DNA of 46,457 nt from Candidatus Roizmanbacteria bacterium RIFCSPHIGHO2_12_FULL_38_13 (GTDB taxonomy: Bacteria; Patescibacteriota; Microgenomatia; UBA1406; GWC2-37-13), in contig MFZZ01000009.1 of the NCBI GenBank assembly GCA_001789555.1, positions 1,093-47,549 of the forward strand, read 5' to 3'. How positions within the stretch are numbered: position 1 is the first letter of the stretch; each line of letters starts with the position of its first letter. Under the pieces are notes generated by a model. The model worked only from the letters and a program-made list of their open reading frames with translations, made no database searches and was not told the origin of the DNA. The translations under genes were made by a program, and so were the position numbers. Of this stretch, positions 1-9,635 are shown in pieces.

Positions 1-643
1 CGAGAGTATTCATTTCTTTTCTAGTCTTTTCGATAAGTTCTTTCATACTTTTGGAAGTTTCAGGATCGACGCAGCGAATTTCCGGATCATTTTCATAGGT
101 CTTTTTGACATCTCCAAACGAATATCCTTTTTCAACTTTTATTTCGCCTATCTGCAATGTGTGACTTGCAATTTCAATTTTGTGCTGAAGTAAAAATTGT
201 TTAAAAATCGCACCGGCTGCGACGCGCGCCGCTGTCTCACGTGCACTTGCGCGCTCAAGGACATTTCTGACATCATCAAAACCGTACTTTTGTACGCCGG
301 TTAAATCGGCATGGCCGGGACGTGGTTGTGTAACACGAGCAGATTCAACAACCTCTTTTGGTTGGGGATCCACACTCATCTTAACATCCCAATTTTTGTA
401 ATCCTTATTTTCAATTAACAAAGCAATCGGGCTTCCGATCGTTTTTCCAAAACGGATTCCGGACAATATTTCTACTTTGTCTTCTTCAATCAGCATCCGC
501 CCTCCGCTTCCCGATCCTTTCATACGTTTTTTCATTTCATGCGCAATGAATACTTGAGAAACTGGCACACCCGCAGGCATACCCTCGATAATGACAGTTA
601 ATGCTTTGCCGTGTGATTCACCGGCTGTTAGAAAACGCAACAT
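1..643 (-). CDS. aroC: Chorismate synthase, 3' end truncated by window edge
   Basis: Manual minus-strand translation from ATG at 643: MLRFLTAGESHGKALTVIIEGMPAGVPVS...GSGSGGRMLIEEDKVEILSGIRFGKTIGSPIALLIENKD; absent from ORF track because it runs off the edge. Confidence 0.95.
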   Translation of the reverse strand, partial: MLRFLTAGESHGKALTVIIEGMPAGVPVSQVFIAHEMKKRMKGSGSGGRMLIEEDKVEILSGIRFGKTIGSPIALLIENKDYKNWDVKMSVDPQPKEVVESARVTQPRPGHADLTGVQKYGFDDVRNVLERASARETAARVAAGAIFKQFLLQHKIEIASHTLQIGEIKVEKGYSFGDVKKTYENDPEIRCVDPETSKSMKELIEKTRKEMNTL

Positions 644-806: not shown

Positions 807-834
807 CTGGATTCCGGATCAAGTCCGGAATGAC
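807..834. repeat. Dispersed palindromic repeat (CTGGATTCCGGATCAAGTCCGGAATGAC)
   Basis: Inverted arms ATTCCGGA/TCCGGAAT; same family as 17982, 18250, 19369 and 28174 copies; overlaps the aroD 3' end. Confidence 0.8.
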
Positions 835-1496
835 AATATTGTATTGTAAATATTTTTTAATTCTTCGATGCCAATCTGCCCCGGCGCCGACTCTCCAAAC
901 TCCGTTGACGCATATGTCAAATAACTTCCAAGCAAAGGTACCAATATTCTCGTCACTCTCCCTTTTTCTCCCATCCCAATTACAATCCTTTCTTCGTTAT
1001 GCGGTTTATTTGTAAGCAATCTATAAATTTTTGTGGTTTCATATTCTTCAGTTAAAACAGTTGCAATTTTTAAAATATCAGGTTTAAATTCATTCATCTC
1101 ATAAATGATGCTTTGCATGTCCCAATAACTTGGAGTTTCAACAAAATTGTGATAGGAAATAATCAGCTTAGTATTATCTCGTTTAAATTGATATTCTTTA
1201 ATCGTTGAAAGTTCAATATCAACATGATCAAATCCTAGCTCAATTGCTTTTTGTAAAATTCCTACACGGTTATTTTCGTCACCGTTAAATTTTCCACCTT
1301 CTTCTTTTTTTCTGCAAGTAAAAATAGATTGCACGTTTGTTTCTTTGCGAATGACTTCAACATTTGTTTCAGTAAAATCCTGAATATAATCGACTCGTAA
1401 TTCTACAAAATCCGATATTTCTTCTGTCTTTTTTAAGTTTGACAAAAAATCATCAAGTGTTGTTCCGATAACGGGTGTACAAATGCGTATATTCAT
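819..1496 (-). CDS. aroD: Type I 3-dehydroquinate dehydratase
   Basis: ORF; ELRVDYIQD, FTCRKKEEGG, IISYHNF, GESAPGQI motifs; operon context. Confidence 0.9.
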   Translation of the reverse strand: MNIRICTPVIGTTLDDFLSNLKKTEEISDFVELRVDYIQDFTETNVEVIRKETNVQSIFTCRKKEEGGKFNGDENNRVGILQKAIELGFDHVDIELSTIKEYQFKRDNTKLIISYHNFVETPSYWDMQSIIYEMNEFKPDILKIATVLTEEYETTKIYRLLTNKPHNEERIVIGMGEKGRVTRILVPLLGSYLTYASTEFGESAPGQIGIEELKNIYNTILSFRT

Positions 1497-1499
1497 AAG

Positions 1500-2390
1500 T
1501 CAACTCGTAACTCGCCTGCCTGCCGTCGAGGCAGGTAACTTATAACTCTCAACTAGTATTTCTCTCATAACTTTAACCGGTGCCTTTTTACCTGTATAAA
1601 GTTCAAACTGTACTATGCCCTGATATAAAAGCATTTCTGTCCCATGAATAATTCTTGCACCTTTTTCTTTTGCTTCCTTCAATAACCTTGTTTCATAAGG
1701 TACATACACGGCATCAAAAACTATATGATCTTTTTTAAGATATTTTTTGGGAACAGGAGTTTTATTCACATTCTTTCCCATGCCCAAACTGGTGGCATTA
1801 AGGATGATGTCGCAGTCTTCAACACCCTGTATATGAGAGAGATCGTAACAACTTACCAACGAAACCGATCGGCCGTTTTTAATCTTTAGAGTCTTTATCA
1901 GGTGCCATGCCTTCTCAAGCGTACGGTTAAAAATAACTACGCTGGCACCTTTTTTCAGAAGTCCGAAAACCATCGCATGGGCCGCGCCACCGGCTCCGAT
2001 AATCGCAGCCTTTTTTCCTTTCAAGCTTCCATATTTTTCAAGAGGTTTGACGACTCCAAGCCAGTCGGTGTTATATCCTTTTAACTTTCCATTATTATTA
2101 ACAACAGTATTTACGGCAACGATCTTTTTGGCTGTTTCATCTATTTCATCAAGATATTTCATAACCCTAATCTTGTGAGGTATCGTGCACGTCAAGCCAC
2201 GAATATTCATTGCGCGAACAGCTTTTATTACATCCTTAAGATCCTTCGGTTTTACCTTAGCAGCCGTAAATACAAATTGGTCGTCAATGTCAAGAGCCTC
2301 ATAACCGGCATTATGCATGAGCGGAGACAGTGAATGTTCGACCGGATCACCGACGATCATACAGATTTTTGTTTTAGCTGAAATTTTCAT
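1500..2390 (-). CDS. aroE: Shikimate dehydrogenase
   Basis: ORF; GDPVEHSLSPLMHNAGYEAL, AAIIGAGGAAHAMVFGL, TSLGM motifs. Confidence 0.95.
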   Translation of the reverse strand: MKISAKTKICMIVGDPVEHSLSPLMHNAGYEALDIDDQFVFTAAKVKPKDLKDVIKAVRAMNIRGLTCTIPHKIRVMKYLDEIDETAKKIVAVNTVVNNNGKLKGYNTDWLGVVKPLEKYGSLKGKKAAIIGAGGAAHAMVFGLLKKGASVVIFNRTLEKAWHLIKTLKIKNGRSVSLVSCYDLSHIQGVEDCDIILNATSLGMGKNVNKTPVPKKYLKKDHIVFDAVYVPYETRLLKEAKEKGARIIHGTEMLLYQGIVQFELYTGKKAPVKVMREILVESYKLPASTAGRRVTS

Positions 2391-2895
2391 TGATTTGGGA
2401 TAATTTTGTTAAAATTTCCGTGGCTATAACATCAGGATCCTTACCATGTGACTTGATAGTTATGTCTGCATATCTTTTATACAATGGCAATCTATGAGAA
2501 AAAAGTTCAAACGCTTGCTTGACATTTTTGAAAAGCGGACGGGCGATCTGATCTGAAAAGACTCTTTTTTTAATCACCTCAAAAGGCACATCAAGAAATA
2601 TGACCGAACCAAAGGGTTGGCACAGATAATCAAGAATAATTTTGTTCATCACCACTCCACCTCCAGTAGATATTATGGCATTTTCCAGATCTCTCCATTC
2701 TTTGGCAAGTTTTATCTCCCATTCACGTAGTAACAATTCACCGCCGATTTTAAACAGTTCATCCATGTCCTTCAATTTGTTTCTTTCAAGCACGATTGCA
2801 TCCATCTCGATAACATCAAGATTTAGCCTTTTCCCAAGTTGTTGTCCAACCGCTGTTTTTCCCGATCCCATAAATCCGATGAGAATTATTTTCAT
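2374..2895 (-). CDS. aroK: Shikimate kinase
   Basis: Start set at MKIILIGFMGSGKTAVGQQLGKRL; P-loop and STGGGVV motifs. Confidence 0.93.
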   Translation of the reverse strand: MKIILIGFMGSGKTAVGQQLGKRLNLDVIEMDAIVLERNKLKDMDELFKIGGELLLREWEIKLAKEWRDLENAIISTGGGVVMNKIILDYLCQPFGSVIFLDVPFEVIKKRVFSDQIARPLFKNVKQAFELFSHRLPLYKRYADITIKSHGKDPDVIATEILTKLSQINENFS

Positions 2896-2918
2896 GTCTA
2901 ATCTTGTAACTTGTAACT

Positions 2919-4163
2919 TTATGTAAATTTTACTGCAATTTGAGCCAACTTCATCCAAAACTCCGGAAAAGTTTTATTAACAACTTCCGGATTTCTTATT
3001 TTAATCTCTGGAATGCTTGTTTGCGCAACCGCAAAACTCATCGCCATTCTATGATCGTTATACGTATCAATTTCTGCAGGTTTTGGACTCCCTCCAAAAA
3101 TTGCAAGTGTATCATGGTCAGGCGATTCTGTTATTATACTCATTTTACCAAGCTCTGCCTGAAGAGCCTTAACCCTTTCGGTTTCTTTGACACGAAGTGA
3201 ACGAACACCTGTGAGTACCGACTTCCCATCAGCAAAAGCGGCAAGAACAGCCAAAGTCTGCGCCTGATCAGGACATTCTTCCATATCAACTTCGACAGGT
3301 TTTACTCCATTGCCTTTAATTGTCACTTCGTTTGAGCCATAAATAATTTTGTTGCCCATTTCTTCTAAAATTTTTAAAAACCGGCGATCGCCCTGGACGG
3401 AGTTTGGATTTAAATTTTCGACTGTTAAAGTGAATTTGTTCAAGGCGGCTACCGCAAAAAAATACCCTGCGGCAGAATAATCGCCTTCGATAATGTATTT
3501 TTTCATTTTATAGTTCTGATTTTTGGCAATAACATACTTTTTATAATCAAAGTTTTCAACTTCGACTCCCCAATCCTTCATCATGGAAATGGTAATATCG
3601 ATATATGATTTTGAGATTTGATTTCCTGAAACTTCAATAGTAACGCCGTCAATAATCGGTGAAATCATAAGTAAAGCAGAGACGAACTGACTACTCACGC
3701 TTCCATTAATAACAATGTTTCCATTTGGTAAAAAAGAAGATTTTACGATAACTGGAGGGAAGCCTTGTTTGTCTTCATATTCGATTTGCGCGCCGGCAGT
3801 TTTTAATGCAAGAACCAAATCCTCTATAGGTCTTTTGTTCAGACCTTCTTTTCCAAATATCCTTTTTTGTCCTGGGACGATACAAGATAATGCAAGAATA
3901 AATCGGATTGTTGTCCCGGACAAATCGGCATCAAGTTCATGCCGTCGATCTTGAATTACACTAATATCATTTTCAACAATAAGTTTGTTTTTTTCTTTTT
4001 TAATCATAATGCCCAATTTTGTTAAACAGGTTATCATCGCCTCGGTATCGTCACTAAAAAGAGGATTTTCCAAAGTTACCTGACCTTTAGTTAACGCGGC
4101 CATAATAAGAGCACGGTTTGTGTAACTTTTGGAACCGGGCATAACAACAATTAAATTGTTCAT
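2919..4163 (-). CDS. aroA: 3-phosphoshikimate 1-carboxyvinyltransferase (EPSP synthase)
   Basis: ORF; PGSKSYTNRALIMAAL, SGTTIRF, DHRMAMSFAV motifs. Confidence 0.96.
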   Translation of the reverse strand: MNNLIVVMPGSKSYTNRALIMAALTKGQVTLENPLFSDDTEAMITCLTKLGIMIKKEKNKLIVENDISVIQDRRHELDADLSGTTIRFILALSCIVPGQKRIFGKEGLNKRPIEDLVLALKTAGAQIEYEDKQGFPPVIVKSSFLPNGNIVINGSVSSQFVSALLMISPIIDGVTIEVSGNQISKSYIDITISMMKDWGVEVENFDYKKYVIAKNQNYKMKKYIIEGDYSAAGYFFAVAALNKFTLTVENLNPNSVQGDRRFLKILEEMGNKIIYGSNEVTIKGNGVKPVEVDMEECPDQAQTLAVLAAFADGKSVLTGVRSLRVKETERVKALQAELGKMSIITESPDHDTLAIFGGSPKPAEIDTYNDHRMAMSFAVAQTSIPEIKIRNPEVVNKTFPEFWMKLAQIAVKFT

Positions 4164-4259: not shown

Positions 4260-5330
4260 TCATAATACATATTGAATTCCTTCACGTACAAACTTATCAT
4301 CAAACTGAATATTGTAATCACCGACTCCGATAGCAGAAAGAAGCGTCCATTTTATCTTTCCATGCTGACTCTTTTTATCTTTTTCAAGCAATGTGACCAC
4401 TTCGTCGACAGAGACACCACTCTCGTATCTGGTCGGTAGACCAAAATCGGCTATTGCCCGCTCGATGATTTTAAAATCTTTTTCGTTTATCATTCCAAGA
4501 TCAGCAGAAATCTTGGCCTCCGCCACCATGCCGATTGCTACCGCTTCACCGTGGAATAAAGGATTTTTCGACTTGAAACTTTGAGACTCAATGGCATGAC
4601 CAACTGTATGTCCGAAATTTAAAAGCTTTCGTAGACCGGTTTCCCTCTCATCTTGTTGTACGATTTCCCCCTTTATCCTGACCGACTCGGCAATGATTTC
4701 AACAAGTTCTTTTTGGGAAAACTGATTAGGTCTTTTTTTAGTCACCCGAAAAAAATAGAATTTATCTTGGATAAGACCATGTTTTATAACCTCGGCAAAA
4801 CCCTGAATAAACGATCTTTTTGGCATGGTCTTTAAAGTATCGATATCGGCAACCACTGCTTTTGGTTGATTGAAAGTGCCAACGTAATTTTTATAATGTC
4901 CCAGATTGACTCCGTTCTTACCTCCAAAACTGGCGTCGACCATAGCTTCAACAGTTGTTGGAATATTGATAAAATCAATTCCCCGTAGATATGTCGAGGC
5001 AACAAAACCTCCCAAATCAGCAACTACACCTCCGCCCATGTTGATAATAAGTCCATGCCGATCGACATTTTTTTCAGCTAAAAATTCGTATGCTCCTTTT
5101 ACTGTTTGTAGATTTTTTGAGCTTTCACCTGATGAGAAGGTAAATACATTTGCTTTTTTTATTGATAAATTTTTCCCGTGCAAACCGTAAACAGTATTAT
5201 CTGAAATCAGATTAACTGATGAATAACGGTCAATGTCGACAAATTCGCCAATTTGTTTTAAGATCTTTGATCCGATAAAAACCGGATAATTAAATGTTTT
5301 TTTAAAGATGCAAATTTGGACTTTTTCCAT
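4260..5330 (-). CDS. aroB: 3-dehydroquinate synthase
   Basis: Start set at MEKVQICIF; MGGGVVADLGGFVASTYLRGIDFINIPTT, NFGHTVGHAIE, HGEAVAIGM motifs. Confidence 0.95.
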   Translation of the reverse strand: MEKVQICIFKKTFNYPVFIGSKILKQIGEFVDIDRYSSVNLISDNTVYGLHGKNLSIKKANVFTFSSGESSKNLQTVKGAYEFLAEKNVDRHGLIINMGGGVVADLGGFVASTYLRGIDFINIPTTVEAMVDASFGGKNGVNLGHYKNYVGTFNQPKAVVADIDTLKTMPKRSFIQGFAEVIKHGLIQDKFYFFRVTKKRPNQFSQKELVEIIAESVRIKGEIVQQDERETGLRKLLNFGHTVGHAIESQSFKSKNPLFHGEAVAIGMVAEAKISADLGMINEKDFKIIERAIADFGLPTRYESGVSVDEVVTLLEKDKKSQHGKIKWTLLSAIGVGDYNIQFDDKFVREGIQYVL

Positions 5331-5338
5331 AAGTAAAA

Positions 5339-6157
5339 TCAACTGTTATATAGTTTACCTCTCGAGTATGCGCCAAGCAGACGATACTCAAGAGTTTCCT
5401 TTTTCATTAAACTTAAAAAATCTTTTGCTTTAGTTTGACCAACTTCAACATCAACCCAGAACTCGTACTCCCAATTGGTGCCAGGCAGTGGCCGCGACTC
5501 GATTTTAGTCAAATTACCATTCATTTTAGCGATCTTATCGAGTACTTTAACCAGACTGCCAGCCAAATGTTTTACTTTGAAAATAACTGTCAGTTTATCG
5601 GCGTTATTAATGTCCAAATGTGAATTATTGGCGATCATAATCCACCTCGACATGTTGTGTTTCACATTGGCAACATCAGACTCGATTACCTGAAGTCCCA
5701 TAATCTTTGCAAGATACTTACTGCCGATGGCGGCACAAATTTTTTTATTTGATTTTTTGACCAAGTCTGCAGCCGAGGCCGTACTCTGCTCGACTAAAAC
5801 ATTTAGGTTATTTTTTTTTATAAACCTGCTACATTGGGCAAAAGCCTGCGGATGTGAATAGACTTTTTTGAGATTGTTGATCTTTGTACCGGGTATTCCA
5901 ATAAGATCAAGACTGATTTCCATAAAGGCTTCACCGATGATTTTGGCGCGGCTTTCAAACATGAGGTCAACAGACTGGTGAACCGAACTACTGATCGAAT
6001 TTTCGATCACAAGTAGTCCGACCGAGTTTGAGTCGTCTTCGACTTTTTCCACAATTTCGGAAAAGGTCTGTAGTGAAATCAGTTCGTGACCGATGTAAAT
6101 CTTTTTCGCGATTTGCTCGCTGAAAGATCCGGTTGGTCCCAAGTAGTAAATTTTCAT
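5339..6157 (-). CDS. pheA: Prephenate dehydratase with C-terminal ACT-like region
   Basis: ORF; MKIYYLGPTGSFSEQ, SHPQAFAQC, ESRPLPGTNWEYEFWVD. Confidence 0.92.
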   Translation of the reverse strand: MKIYYLGPTGSFSEQIAKKIYIGHELISLQTFSEIVEKVEDDSNSVGLLVIENSISSSVHQSVDLMFESRAKIIGEAFMEISLDLIGIPGTKINNLKKVYSHPQAFAQCSRFIKKNNLNVLVEQSTASAADLVKKSNKKICAAIGSKYLAKIMGLQVIESDVANVKHNMSRWIMIANNSHLDINNADKLTVIFKVKHLAGSLVKVLDKIAKMNGNLTKIESRPLPGTNWEYEFWVDVEVGQTKAKDFLSLMKKETLEYRLLGAYSRGKLYNS

Positions 6158-6160
6158 AAT

Positions 6161-6898
6161 TTATGTCTCGAGATATTTTGTAATTTTTTGAAAAGCATTT
6201 TTTGTATTTTGCAACCAAACCTTACTATACGGATTATAAACGTACATATCTTTAAGTAGCTGTTTATCAGTCTGAATGATATCAAGAAAACTATTAAAAA
6301 TCTGACTAGATTTCGTATCTAAATGATTGGGAGCAACATCAAGCTCATGTGCAAGATGAGCAATGATGTGGGCAGTAAACTGTGATCTGACAATATTTTC
6401 ATCGTGTGTTTTTGCGTTGGTTTCGATAATCTTAAATCCAAATTTGGAAAACAAATTTTTTACGGCTATATATTTAAGTCTTTCTCCTCTCACAAAATCC
6501 AAAGCTATGGAAAGTTCGCCAAATTTCGGATTTAAATTGAGGAAAGTTCCAGGGCCAAACAAAGGATGTGAGCCGATAATGGTGTTTGCGCGGGACACGT
6601 ATTTTTTCATGATCTCGATCGGAAACTTTTTTACCGAACAGACATCCATAATGATCGCATCCTTCGGCAATTTTTTTGAGCAATTTTTAATTACTTTTTC
6701 AAAAACTCTGATCGGTACTGCAACGATGATGAGATCATTTTCAAGAGCCTTCTTCAATGATGTAAATCCCGAACGGCTTTTTTGATGTCGAGAAAAAACC
6801 TTGACGTCAAGTTTTGGATTTTTTTTTAGGATATCAACAAGCAGTCTACCAAATCTGCCATAACCGACTACGCCGATAGTGCAAATATTATTTTTCAT
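6161..6898 (-). CDS. tyrA: Prephenate dehydrogenase
   Basis: ICTIGVVGYGRFGRLL Rossmann motif, GSHPLFGPG, SQFTAHIIAHLAHEL. Confidence 0.88.
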   Translation of the reverse strand: MKNNICTIGVVGYGRFGRLLVDILKKNPKLDVKVFSRHQKSRSGFTSLKKALENDLIIVAVPIRVFEKVIKNCSKKLPKDAIIMDVCSVKKFPIEIMKKYVSRANTIIGSHPLFGPGTFLNLNPKFGELSIALDFVRGERLKYIAVKNLFSKFGFKIIETNAKTHDENIVRSQFTAHIIAHLAHELDVAPNHLDTKSSQIFNSFLDIIQTDKQLLKDMYVYNPYSKVWLQNTKNAFQKITKYLET

Positions 6899-7163
6899 GA
6901 TCTGATTCAATGATTAATGACTGCCTGTGAATTCTTTTCCAGACGTCCTGGACAAAATTTTTGTCTAAATTGAATCCTTTTGCGAGCTTCAGACGATTGG
7001 ATATAAGTTTCTCCCATCTTTTCTTATCAAGCGGTTTTTTAGAACTTGACTTCTTTATTGCGCCAATTTCTTGAACAATTGAGAAACGCTTGGCCAAAAG
7101 TTCGATGATCTGACCATCAACAAAATCTATCTGTTTTCTTAGCGATTTTAATTTTTTTTTCAT
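6888..7163 (-). CDS. AroQ-type chorismate mutase
   Basis: 91 aa all-alpha CM pattern: LRKQIDFVDGQIIELLAKRFSIVQEIGAIKK. Confidence 0.88.
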   Translation of the reverse strand: MKKKLKSLRKQIDFVDGQIIELLAKRFSIVQEIGAIKKSSSKKPLDKKRWEKLISNRLKLAKGFNLDKNFVQDVWKRIHRQSLIIESDHEK

Positions 7164-7166
7164 ATT

Positions 7167-8099
7167 TTATGGTGCTACCAAATCACGAAACTTGGCTAAC
7201 TTGGCGACTAATAATTGTAGTTCGGCAATAGTGATGTGCTGATCGGTATCGGTCGATGATGTCCCGGTTTCGATCAGTACACCGTCATAGAGAAATTCAT
7301 TTTTCTCAATTTTCATTTTCATCGCCTCGATAACGGCGTCGACAATATGATCACGCAGTTTTGGACCATATGTATGACTGGGATCGAAAAAAAGCTTAAC
7401 TTTTGTATCCTTCTTAACTCTTTTGGCTATGGCGTGTACAGGCGCGTTGCGGAAATTTTCTTTACCGGGTACATCTACTCCACGATGTATCAAAATAACA
7501 TCACCGTCAATTCCTGTCGCATATTTGACCAACCCTGCCCAAGTTTTTTCCATAGTGGTTTTTCCAAGATATTCATCCGTGTTTGAGGTGTGGATATGAT
7601 CCCCGATCCATTTGCCGTTTTTGATCCCGATATGCCAGCCATTTCTTTTGGCAAAAGCAACCGTTTGTTCTATCTGCCAGCCAAGCTGGTTAACAGCCGG
7701 GTTCCAGGGCAGTAGTTTTCTGTGTGGAATACGTTTTTCATATGAAGGCAACTGGATAATCGGATTCATGACTTCGGTTGCGATCATAAGACCGGTTTTT
7801 TCTACCAATTTTTCGGCGATATATGCGCTTGGCAAAACTTTGAAATCCGAAAGAGTACCGCCTTTTAAAAGGATCTCCATATTTTTCTTGTACACCTCAA
7901 AATCCATGCCCATTCCTTTGCCGGACATATCAAGCTCTGTGCGCGACTTGAGACCGACCACCCGTGTGCCGGCAACTGCTTTTTGTTTTTTTCCACTTCT
8001 ATTACGAATGGTGATCTTCGCAATCTCCATAATCTCGTTGATGTTGTTATCATCAATCGAACAAGGCCCGGCAATGATGGTGATTTTTTGATTTTTCAT
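7167..8099 (-). CDS. DAHP synthase (type I DAHPS/KDO8PS superfamily)
   Basis: ITIIAGPCSIDD, AGTRVVGLKSRT, ATEVMNP, LIHRGVD, FFDPSHTYG; first gene of the aro operon. Confidence 0.85.
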   Translation of the reverse strand: MKNQKITIIAGPCSIDDNNINEIMEIAKITIRNRSGKKQKAVAGTRVVGLKSRTELDMSGKGMGMDFEVYKKNMEILLKGGTLSDFKVLPSAYIAEKLVEKTGLMIATEVMNPIIQLPSYEKRIPHRKLLPWNPAVNQLGWQIEQTVAFAKRNGWHIGIKNGKWIGDHIHTSNTDEYLGKTTMEKTWAGLVKYATGIDGDVILIHRGVDVPGKENFRNAPVHAIAKRVKKDTKVKLFFDPSHTYGPKLRDHIVDAVIEAMKMKIEKNEFLYDGVLIETGTSSTDTDQHITIAELQLLVAKLAKFRDLVAP

Positions 8100-8126
8100 A
8101 AAAAAAACCCGCCTTATGGCGGGATG
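8100..8126 (-). terminator. Intrinsic terminator/attenuator immediately 5' of DAHP synthase
   Basis: Minus strand CCCGCC-ATAA-GGCGGG followed by U8 (8100-8107), directly abutting ATG at 8099. Confidence 0.93.
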
Positions 8127-8151
8127 TGGACTTAACTTTAAAAATTATGTG

Positions 8152-8229
8152 TCAGACATAACTTTCCACCCCGCCTGAAGCGGTAAAGTAAAAATAAAAA
8201 TAAAACCGGTGGAAAGGTTTCTTTGACAT
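8152..8229 (-). CDS. Phe/Tyr-rich leader peptide MSKKPFHRFYFYFYFTASGGVESYV (attenuator leader ORF)
   Basis: Manual codon-by-codon translation: ATG TCA AAG AAA CCT TTC CAC CGG TTT TAT TTT TAT TTT TAC TTT ACC GCT TCA GGC GGG GTG GAA AGT TAT GTC TGA; lies between promoter and terminator of the aro operon. Confidence 0.88.
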   Translation of the reverse strand: MSKKPFHRFYFYFYFTASGGVESYV

Positions 8230-8238
8230 GTAAAATTT

Positions 8239-8266
8239 ATTTTAACAGAAAAAAAGTGTCTGTCAA
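8239..8266 (-). promoter_or_regulatory. Sigma70-like promoter of aro operon (TTGACA-N16-TAAAAT)
   Basis: -35 TTGACA = 8266..8261, -10 TAAAAT = 8244..8239 on the minus strand. Confidence 0.75.
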
Positions 8267-8294
8267 CTCTTACAGCGAAAAAGATTTAAGTCTT

Positions 8295-9635
8295 CTATAA
8301 AGCCAAAAACAATCCCGCGCCAATAATTACCAATCCGATGCTGGTCACAAATATCGGCACCATATCGATACCACTGACTGGCGGAGGAGGTGTCGGGGTT
8401 GTTGTCAAAGTAGTATCAACAATTTCTGTAGGCTCCGGTGTTGGCGATTCTTGCCGGGTCGGAGTCAGGGATCCTGTAGGAGTTAGCGATCCCGTCGGAC
8501 TCATTATTGGAGTAACCGAGCCTGACGGAGTTGCGGTTGTAGCTAACACTTGCTCACCGCTTTTAATGATCGTAAAACGTCTTGACATATTTATAGTCTG
8601 GCCTCGCTCGTTCTTGGTGTTTAAGATCAAGGTATATGCTCCGGGACGAAAAGTGGTTTTAGCTTCTATCAGCCAGTTGCCCTCTTGATCGACTTTTACT
8701 TTGCGTGAAAAAACAGGATTAGCGTCAATACTCACGGTCACATACTCATTGGGGATACCCTTGCCATTGATGATCGGAGAGGAGCCGGGAATGACAGCGT
8801 TTTGTTTTGGATAGCGTATTTCTACACGATAACCGGAGTTGTTTGATTTTGTTGGTTTATCGGTCGTGGAAAGTACATTATCGCCCTCTAAAAAAGAATA
8901 ATTTTTACCTATGATAACTGTTTGTGGTAACGGACTGGCTTTCGAAATTGTGGACTTAACGACAGATTGCTGATTTTCAGAATAAACGTTGATTGTTAAA
9001 ATTGTATTTAATTCTACCGTCGATGGGCGCAGTGTCTCCTTTTGGACAATATGCTGCATGGGCACGAGCCATTCGCCCGTTTGACCTGTAGTTGATGCCA
9101 GTGGTACCGCACCTCCTATGTTCACCAAAACTACTGCTTCTTCAAGCGGTTGTCCATCTGGTAAAACGATTGTGCCATATGCAGGTGATAAAGTATTTCC
9201 CGGCAAAGATTCTGGCAGTGTTCGCAGCGTAAACGGTGCACCTGCAGGATCGGATATTAATTCACTATTGCTTATTAATCTATAGTAGTAAAGCGTGTCT
9301 GGTTTTAAATTTTTTAGGACAACATAATGATACAGCCGTTCTTTTCTTTTATCGATATCGCGTTCGTCAACTGCAACTTGATCTAGTTTTGAAGGATTTT
9401 CCCCATAGGTCACCCAGCCCTGATCGACAGTCGGCACCTCCCAGAATACACCCGATTGTTGTGGTAATACGTTGACTACCTGATGTTTTGAGACTGTTTG
9501 TTTGGAGGCTCTCGTAAACTTCACACTCGAGCTATAGTAAACAATTACTGCCGAAACAGCAACGATCACCGCAGCAATAACCATGTACCTTGACGGTCTT
9601 GATTGAGATTGAAAATAAAGATCACTATATGACAT
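8295..9635 (-). CDS. Surface-anchored protein: N-terminal TM, FN3/Ig-like regions, Ser/Thr/Pro-rich stalk, C-terminal TM
   Basis: SRYMVIAAVIVAVSAVIVYY; KPDTLYYYRLIS; PTGSLTPTGSLTPT...PTPPPP; C-terminal MVPIFVTSIGLVIIGAGLFLAL. Confidence 0.7.
   Translation of the reverse strand: MSYSDLYFQSQSRPSRYMVIAAVIVAVSAVIVYYSSSVKFTRASKQTVSKHQVVNVLPQQSGVFWEVPTVDQGWVTYGENPSKLDQVAVDERDIDKRKERLYHYVVLKNLKPDTLYYYRLISNSELISDPAGAPFTLRTLPESLPGNTLSPAYGTIVLPDGQPLEEAVVLVNIGGAVPLASTTGQTGEWLVPMQHIVQKETLRPSTVELNTILTINVYSENQQSVVKSTISKASPLPQTVIIGKNYSFLEGDNVLSTTDKPTKSNNSGYRVEIRYPKQNAVIPGSSPIINGKGIPNEYVTVSIDANPVFSRKVKVDQEGNWLIEAKTTFRPGAYTLILNTKNERGQTINMSRRFTIIKSGEQVLATTATPSGSVTPIMSPTGSLTPTGSLTPTRQESPTPEPTEIVDTTLTTTPTPPPPVSGIDMVPIFVTSIGLVIIGAGLFLAL

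Follow-up and report, generated by a model that had tools for sequence, protein, structure and literature searches.

The window analysed here is a stretch of 46,457 nucleotides from a Roizmanbacteria-like member of the Patescibacteria (Microgenomates group). On its minus strand lies an operon in the order DAHP synthase (DAHPS), chorismate mutase (CM), prephenate dehydrogenase (PDH), prephenate dehydratase (PDT), aroB, aroA, aroK, aroE, aroD and aroC, which form a complete shikimate/Phe/Tyr set (Table 1). The DAHP synthase is divergent: its scores against the NCBIfam models are far below the cut-offs, and no solved structure related to it by sequence was found in the PDB. The last open reading frame, which we take to be chorismate synthase-like (aroC), is assigned by a sequence motif. 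An earlier note on this DNA had proposed that an attenuator gates the entire Phe/Tyr pathway, and the identification of the operon genes by Pfam and NCBIfam families, with the motif for aroC, agrees with that description of the genes under control.

The region preceding the operon (minus strand, 8270-8099) consists of a promoter, a spacer of 9 nt between the end of the -10 box and the leader ATG, the leader ORF, the sequence CCCGCC-ATAA-GGCGGG-T8 and the ATG of the DAHP synthase gene. The promoter, TTGACA-N16-TAAAAT, scores highest among 28 promoter-like matches in 12 kb of surrounding sequence, and codons 9-15 of the leader read TTT TAT TTT TAT TTT TAC TTT. No Shine-Dalgarno sequence is seen before the leader ATG of the window. 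The promoter is found again in most relatives at a similar distance: among leaders with a promoter that fits the consensus at 10 or 11 of its 12 positions, most have their ATG 6-9 nt past the -10 box (L019, with 12 nt, is an exception), which is where transcription normally starts. Because of this spacing and the missing Shine-Dalgarno sequence in the window, the leader mRNA is probably leaderless or nearly leaderless. There is a precedent for such a start in the trpL RNA of Sinorhizobium meliloti, which begins at the ATG of its leader ORF (PMC7298713).

Segment 1 of the leader, CTTTCCACC (8216-8208), is perfectly complementary to GGTGGAAAG (8170-8162) over nine pairs. The 2:3 helix comprises 11 Watson-Crick pairs and a 2-nt bulge (8175-8165 with 8130-8126 and 8123-8118), and its calculated energy is -19 kcal/mol, versus -11.6 kcal/mol for 3:4. 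The terminator stem, CCCGCC (8123-8118) with GGCGGG (8113-8108), is the sole stem composed entirely of G-C pairs (6/6) among 16 terminator-like sites, and the fold of the leader is 3.9 sd below that of dinucleotide shuffles. The earlier note had placed the promoter, the leader ORF and codons 9-15 correctly to the base, and the 1:2 pairing, the CCCGCC/GGCGGG pairing of 3:4 and the eight U residues touching the ATG are likewise present in the sequence. Its 2:3 helix also exists, with the composition given above rather than the nine pairs, one of them G-U, that had been described.

Table 1. Positions in the window of the leader elements and of the operon genes, with the basis of each assignment.
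Feature	Position	Strand	Basis or remark
Sigma-70-type promoter, TTGACA (8266-8261)-N16-TAAAAT (8244-8239)	8239..8266	(-)	11/12 positions
Leader-peptide ORF, MSKKPFHRFYFYFYFTASGGVESYV and stop, 25 codons	8152..8229	(-)	Sequence; kept in relatives
Sensor codons 9-15 (Phe-Tyr-Phe-Tyr-Phe-Tyr-Phe)	8185..8205	(-)	Codons 9-12 are the predicted effective stall sites
Segment 1, CTTTCCACC	8208..8216	(-)	Protector strand; pairs with 8170-8162
Segment 2, GGCGGGGTGGAAAG	8162..8175	(-)	Within the last codons of the leader ORF
Segment 3, TCCACATCCCGCC	8118..8130	(-)	11 pairs with segment 2 (antiterminator); CCCGCC alternatively pairs with segment 4
Segment 4, GGCGGG	8108..8113	(-)	3' arm of the terminator hairpin 8123-8108
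U-tract, 8 T, of the intrinsic terminator	8100..8107	(-)	Adjoins the DAHP synthase ATG (8099)
Divergent DAHP synthase, first structural gene	7167..8099	(-)	Pfam PF00793, 36.7 bits (cut-off 25.5)
Chorismate mutase type II (CM)	6888..7163	(-)	PF01817
Prephenate dehydrogenase (PDH), Tyr branch	6161..6910	(-)	PF02153
Prephenate dehydratase (PDT), Phe branch	5339..6157	(-)	PF00800
aroB, 3-dehydroquinate synthase	4260..5342	(-)	TIGR01357
aroA, EPSP synthase	2919..4163	(-)	TIGR01356
aroK, shikimate kinase	2374..2958	(-)	PF01202; true start probably ~2895
aroE, shikimate dehydrogenase	1500..2390	(-)	TIGR00507
aroD, type I 3-dehydroquinate dehydratase	819..1496	(-)	TIGR01093
aroC-like, presumed chorismate synthase	1..643	(-)	Start MLRFLTAGESHGKAL; continues beyond the window edge

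Among 85 genomes of the order, 21 contain a full-length DAHP synthase orthologue, all of them from the window's own family, and a leader rich in F and Y codons with a terminator stands at the head of the operon in 18 of these 21. The leader with its F/Y run and a terminator 15-28 nt past the stop codon immediately precedes the DAHPS gene in 12 genomes, the window counted (examples of the peptides of relatives are MVQKASHNSFYFYFFFTASGGVGSCA, MTATNSHRWFYFYFIFTALGGVGGNV and MKNVAAQKFYFYFDPPCGGGCSC). In six others DAHPS is internal, and the leader is found at the operon head before a PfkB-like kinase gene, a transaldolase-like gene or another gene; no leader was detected in the other three, even by a lax scan. 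At L048, L051, L053 and L054, a PfkB-like kinase or transaldolase-like gene (named by eye) comes first after the leader and is followed by DAHPS, a placement that possibly puts the supply of erythrose-4-phosphate under the same control. The leader L005 (2615-2508, genome G063) carries a large in-frame insert of palindromic repeats (about 27-30 nt), which splits the aromatic run and preserves the reading frame.

Leaders were also found in nine genomes from other families of the Patescibacteria, located before DAHPS, PDT, PDH-PDT, CM-PDT or aroA, or near a CM gene, which gives a total of 28 leaders in 27 genomes. Two of the nine belong to another family of the same class, one of them carrying two leaders, and seven, in other families, come from 55 genomes with prephenate dehydratase that were sampled across the phylum; the scan for a short ORF plus terminator identifies a leader in only 8 of these 55. 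The two aromatic leaders of locus L056 (genome G358), both with terminators, are at 3980-3909 and 1224-1153; in one case the genes that follow are a group including PDT and PDH, in the other DAHPS. The count of short ORFs with terminators is by itself non-specific, as other residue triples yield 0-26 intergenic matches, and the specificity of the leaders is a matter of gene position and not of number. A same-strand aro gene is present within 1.3 kb downstream of 14 of the 15 FYW matches, and the fifteenth (L049) has CM and DAHP synthase genes at 1.4-1.8 kb downstream. Many of the control-triple matches near aro genes are the same leaders or their other reading frames.

A MAFFT alignment of 12 leaders analysed with RNAalifold gave no consensus structure, because gaps misalign segment 3 and mutually exclusive helices defy a single-structure model. 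Therefore, constrained folding leader by leader and synonymous recoding were used, together with a direct comparison of the segments in the seven closest leaders. For each of 26 leaders, the nucleotides surrounding the ribosomal A site were constrained to be unpaired, and the null consisted of 60 sets in which the leader ORF was recoded synonymously while the peptide, spacer and terminator were left unchanged. With a footprint of -18/+13 at 37 °C, the terminator probability of the window is 0.01-0.05 when the A site is at codons 9-12 and increases to 0.31 at codon 13, 0.64 at codon 14, 0.98 at codon 15 and 0.99 at the stop codon. The switch is similar at 15 and 25 °C and with wider footprints, and a narrow footprint of -14 gives a terminator probability at the stop codon of just 0.52. 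The ribosome-free RNA of the window favours 2:3 at equilibrium (terminator probability 0.32), which makes the off state of RNA free of ribosomes a matter of folding order. Folding with the ribosome footprint reproduces the switch that had been predicted. The stall on the FYFYFYF codons, as the earlier note put it, is too broad a description, since a ribosome with its A site at codon 15 already extends over segment 2, and terminator formation is predicted there. The first three or four aromatic codons (9-12) are accordingly the sensor that is predicted to matter.

Across the 26 leaders, the mean difference in terminator probability between stop and stall is 0.57, versus 0.19 in the null (0.28 in the highest null set), and 15 leaders have a switch of at least 0.5, versus at most 8 in the null sets. 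Seven leaders show little or no thermodynamic switch (≤ 0.11; L004, L005, L007, L008, L048, L051 and L137), and all of these except L005 have a 2:3 value of at least 0.64 as long as segment 4 is absent. RNA truncated ahead of segment 4 imitates the point in transcription at which segment 3 is newly exposed; in such RNA, the occupancy of the arm by the 2:3 helix is 0.84, versus 0.56 in the null (maximum 0.67). The codons that follow the aromatic run are thus chosen with regard to pairing. The expected 1:2 pairing is high in the window, where it is reached by 3 of 100 recodings, and in some relatives, and over the 26 leaders the 1:2 helix is not above the null. These results support a general 2:3 antiterminator, with the 1:2 protector as a probably optional part. 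The comparison proposed in the earlier note, whether the aromatic run and the paired stems are kept while the rest drifts, comes out in favour of the model: relatives retain the run, the terminator and the antiterminator helix 2:3, and for the 1:2 stem the support extends to the window and some relatives and not to the whole set.

The comparison of the seven closest leaders reveals a matched change in three segments. The window has UUUCCAC in segment 1, GUGGA in segment 2 and UCCAC in segment 3, whereas in each of the other six the corresponding residue of segment 1 is C, segment 2 reads GUGGG and segment 3 reads CCCAC. The positions concerned, 8213, 8165 and 8130 (one per segment), are changed together (U/A/U versus C/G/C), which preserves both 1:2 (U-A or C-G) and 2:3 (A-U or G-C). 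The change may represent a single evolutionary event, and such a pattern in the sequences would be hard to explain unless both of the exclusive helices matter.

The locus contains the elements by which an attenuator is recognized: a cluster of end-product codons before the operon, a terminator between the two, and an antiterminator, exclusive with the terminator, whose 5' part a ribosome on the UGA would mask. The complete shikimate/Phe/Tyr operon is very probably controlled by a ribosome-mediated leader-peptide transcription attenuator, to judge from the sequence and the folding model; this interpretation, which is that of the earlier note, is supported by the conservation, the folding, the recoding null and the matched change. 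From these features we infer that the leader is translated, that transcription starts at or beside its AUG, and that termination and readthrough occur in the cell in response to Phe-tRNA and Tyr-tRNA. A ribosome would begin the leader on a leaderless or near-leaderless transcript, as the spacing suggests. When Phe-tRNA or Tyr-tRNA is scarce, the ribosome would stall with its A site at codons 9-12 and cover segment 1, and the free segment 2 would pair with the emerging segment 3, so that no terminator forms and the operon is transcribed. When both tRNAs are charged, a ribosome at the UGA would cover segment 2 and allow 3:4 to form, and transcription would stop in the U-tract immediately ahead of the DAHP synthase start codon. 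In the absence of a ribosome, the 1:2 helix, which is supported in the window and some relatives, may form first and also favour termination. The alternation of Phe and Tyr codons would enable the switch to sense a shortage of either end product.

Three other explanations of the hairpin were considered. That the hairpin hides the start of the DAHP synthase gene and is opened by a stalled ribosome, which would be translational control, is suggested by the U-tract that touches the AUG in the window; however, the stem ends 8-164 nt before the gene in relatives, and every relative has a U-tract after the stem, which a transcription terminator requires, so this is very improbable as the main mechanism, and an additional translational effect in the window, besides attenuation, is possible. 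It is still less probable that a protein- or tRNA-binding leader (T-box, TRAP-like or another riboswitch) controls the terminator and the ORF is incidental. T-boxes do govern tyrosine genes in other bacteria (PMC1262725), but no Rfam family reaches its threshold in the window and only tRNAs do so in the loci of nine relatives, which leaves no regulatory family at cut-off in either; the T-box is also absent from the 19 sub-threshold matches at 8050-8300. Moreover, the leader is just ~130 nt long, and what is conserved in it is a run of aromatic codons within an open reading frame. The chance that the hairpin is merely the terminator of the upstream gene, an ORF (8295-9635) on the same strand that ends ~170 nt before it, and that the F/Y ORF is low-complexity sequence, given that U-rich stretches readily encode F, is equally slight, since that gene is separated from the hairpin by a near-consensus promoter, the leader is kept in relatives with different upstream sequence while its peptide run, spacing and helices are retained, the Phe and Tyr codons of the leaders are mixed (TTT/TTC and TAT/TAC), and the switch is lost on synonymous recoding.

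The attenuator thus favoured has its closest known counterpart in the E. coli pheL-pheA leader. The best Rfam score over all families, in a 251-base search, is that of RF01859 (Phe_leader), with which the window aligns over the whole model (1-125) at 26.8 bits and an E value of 0.012, below the cut-off of 55 bits for membership in this family; RF00513 (Trp_leader) gives 14.5 bits against a cut-off of 41. Both the window and pheL-pheA have a Phe-rich leader peptide, alternative helices and an intrinsic terminator before an aromatic gene, whereas the window differs in its alternating Phe/Tyr codons, its near-leaderless start, its host in the Patescibacteria and its control of DAHP synthase with the whole shikimate, Phe and Tyr pathway. 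The trpL attenuators (RF00513; S. meliloti trpL) follow the same logic with Trp as the sensed residue. The pheST (pheM) attenuator of gamma-proteobacteria also has a leader peptide with a run of Phe codons, and it differs in controlling the Phe-tRNA synthetase. The pheST attenuator is named in PMC1262725. Leader peptides outside the Proteobacteria likewise occur in Actinobacteria, whose Phe and Tyr operons were found to lack a conserved RNA element upstream (PMC1262725), and at hisS/hisZ of Firmicutes (PMC2965389); in 2010, before the Firmicutes case of that paper itself, leader-peptide systems were stated to be known only in Proteobacteria and Actinobacteria (PMC2965389). No report of leader-peptide attenuation in Patescibacteria was found in the literature searched, which comprised few subscription papers. 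The mechanism is classical, and what is new, as far as could be found, is the host phylum, the mixed Phe/Tyr(/Trp) sensor with its alternating Phe and Tyr codons, the control point and the start, which is probably leaderless.

The genome of the window has a locus of its own for Trp synthesis, and the leader consequently does not cover the Trp branch. Of 8 genomes with a Trp pathway, 5 have Trp codons within the aromatic cluster, versus 3 of the 18 that lack the pathway, a correlation that is not significant (Fisher p 0.06, kinship uncorrected). Within one genus, the leader L129 (G476) reads IWFSFYFY and the Trp pathway is present, whereas L132 (G516, 79% complete) reads IYFSFYF and the pathway is absent; in this pair, the Trp codon may track the Trp pathway. 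A broader view, for which the chances are slightly less than even, is that these leaders are widespread and possibly old leaderless mini-ORF attenuators that count all the aromatics served by the pathway (Phe, Tyr, and Trp if the chorismate feeds Trp) and that have been carried through operon reshuffling. If true, this would amount to pathway-wide cis control in bacteria with reduced genomes.

At L144 (G329, 825-881), the trpE operon is preceded by a leader, MYKSNKNIAAWWNLSKRG, that contains tandem Trp codons and is followed by a terminator; folding gives a terminator probability of 0.08-0.12 at the Trp codons and 1.00 at the stop codon. Because a clear switch is predicted for this leader, the mechanism probably extends beyond the aro operon within the phylum. 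Candidate short ORFs with Trp codons and terminators also precede trpE at L043, L044 and, in the window's own genome, L046 (G000:C20, MINQIQLIHQLSLNSWRAICWRVDLWPN), and the gene just upstream looks TrpR/YerC-like by eye. The own-genome candidate comprises three Trp codons and a terminator; folding did not reveal a convincing switch at these codons, and the candidate is not claimed here.

The Patescibacteria are a very large and almost wholly uncultured group, the gene regulation of which is nearly unknown. A conserved attenuator of this kind implies a coupling of transcription and translation so close that the stalling of a ribosome can direct RNA polymerase. It also implies that a regulatory ORF is probably translated by leaderless initiation, and that the charging of Phe-tRNA and Tyr-tRNA is sensed by members with aromatic pathways. 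Leader-peptide attenuation would thereby reach beyond Proteobacteria, Actinobacteria and Firmicutes, and the leader would offer a simple sequence signature for annotating aromatic operons in the genomes of Patescibacteria.
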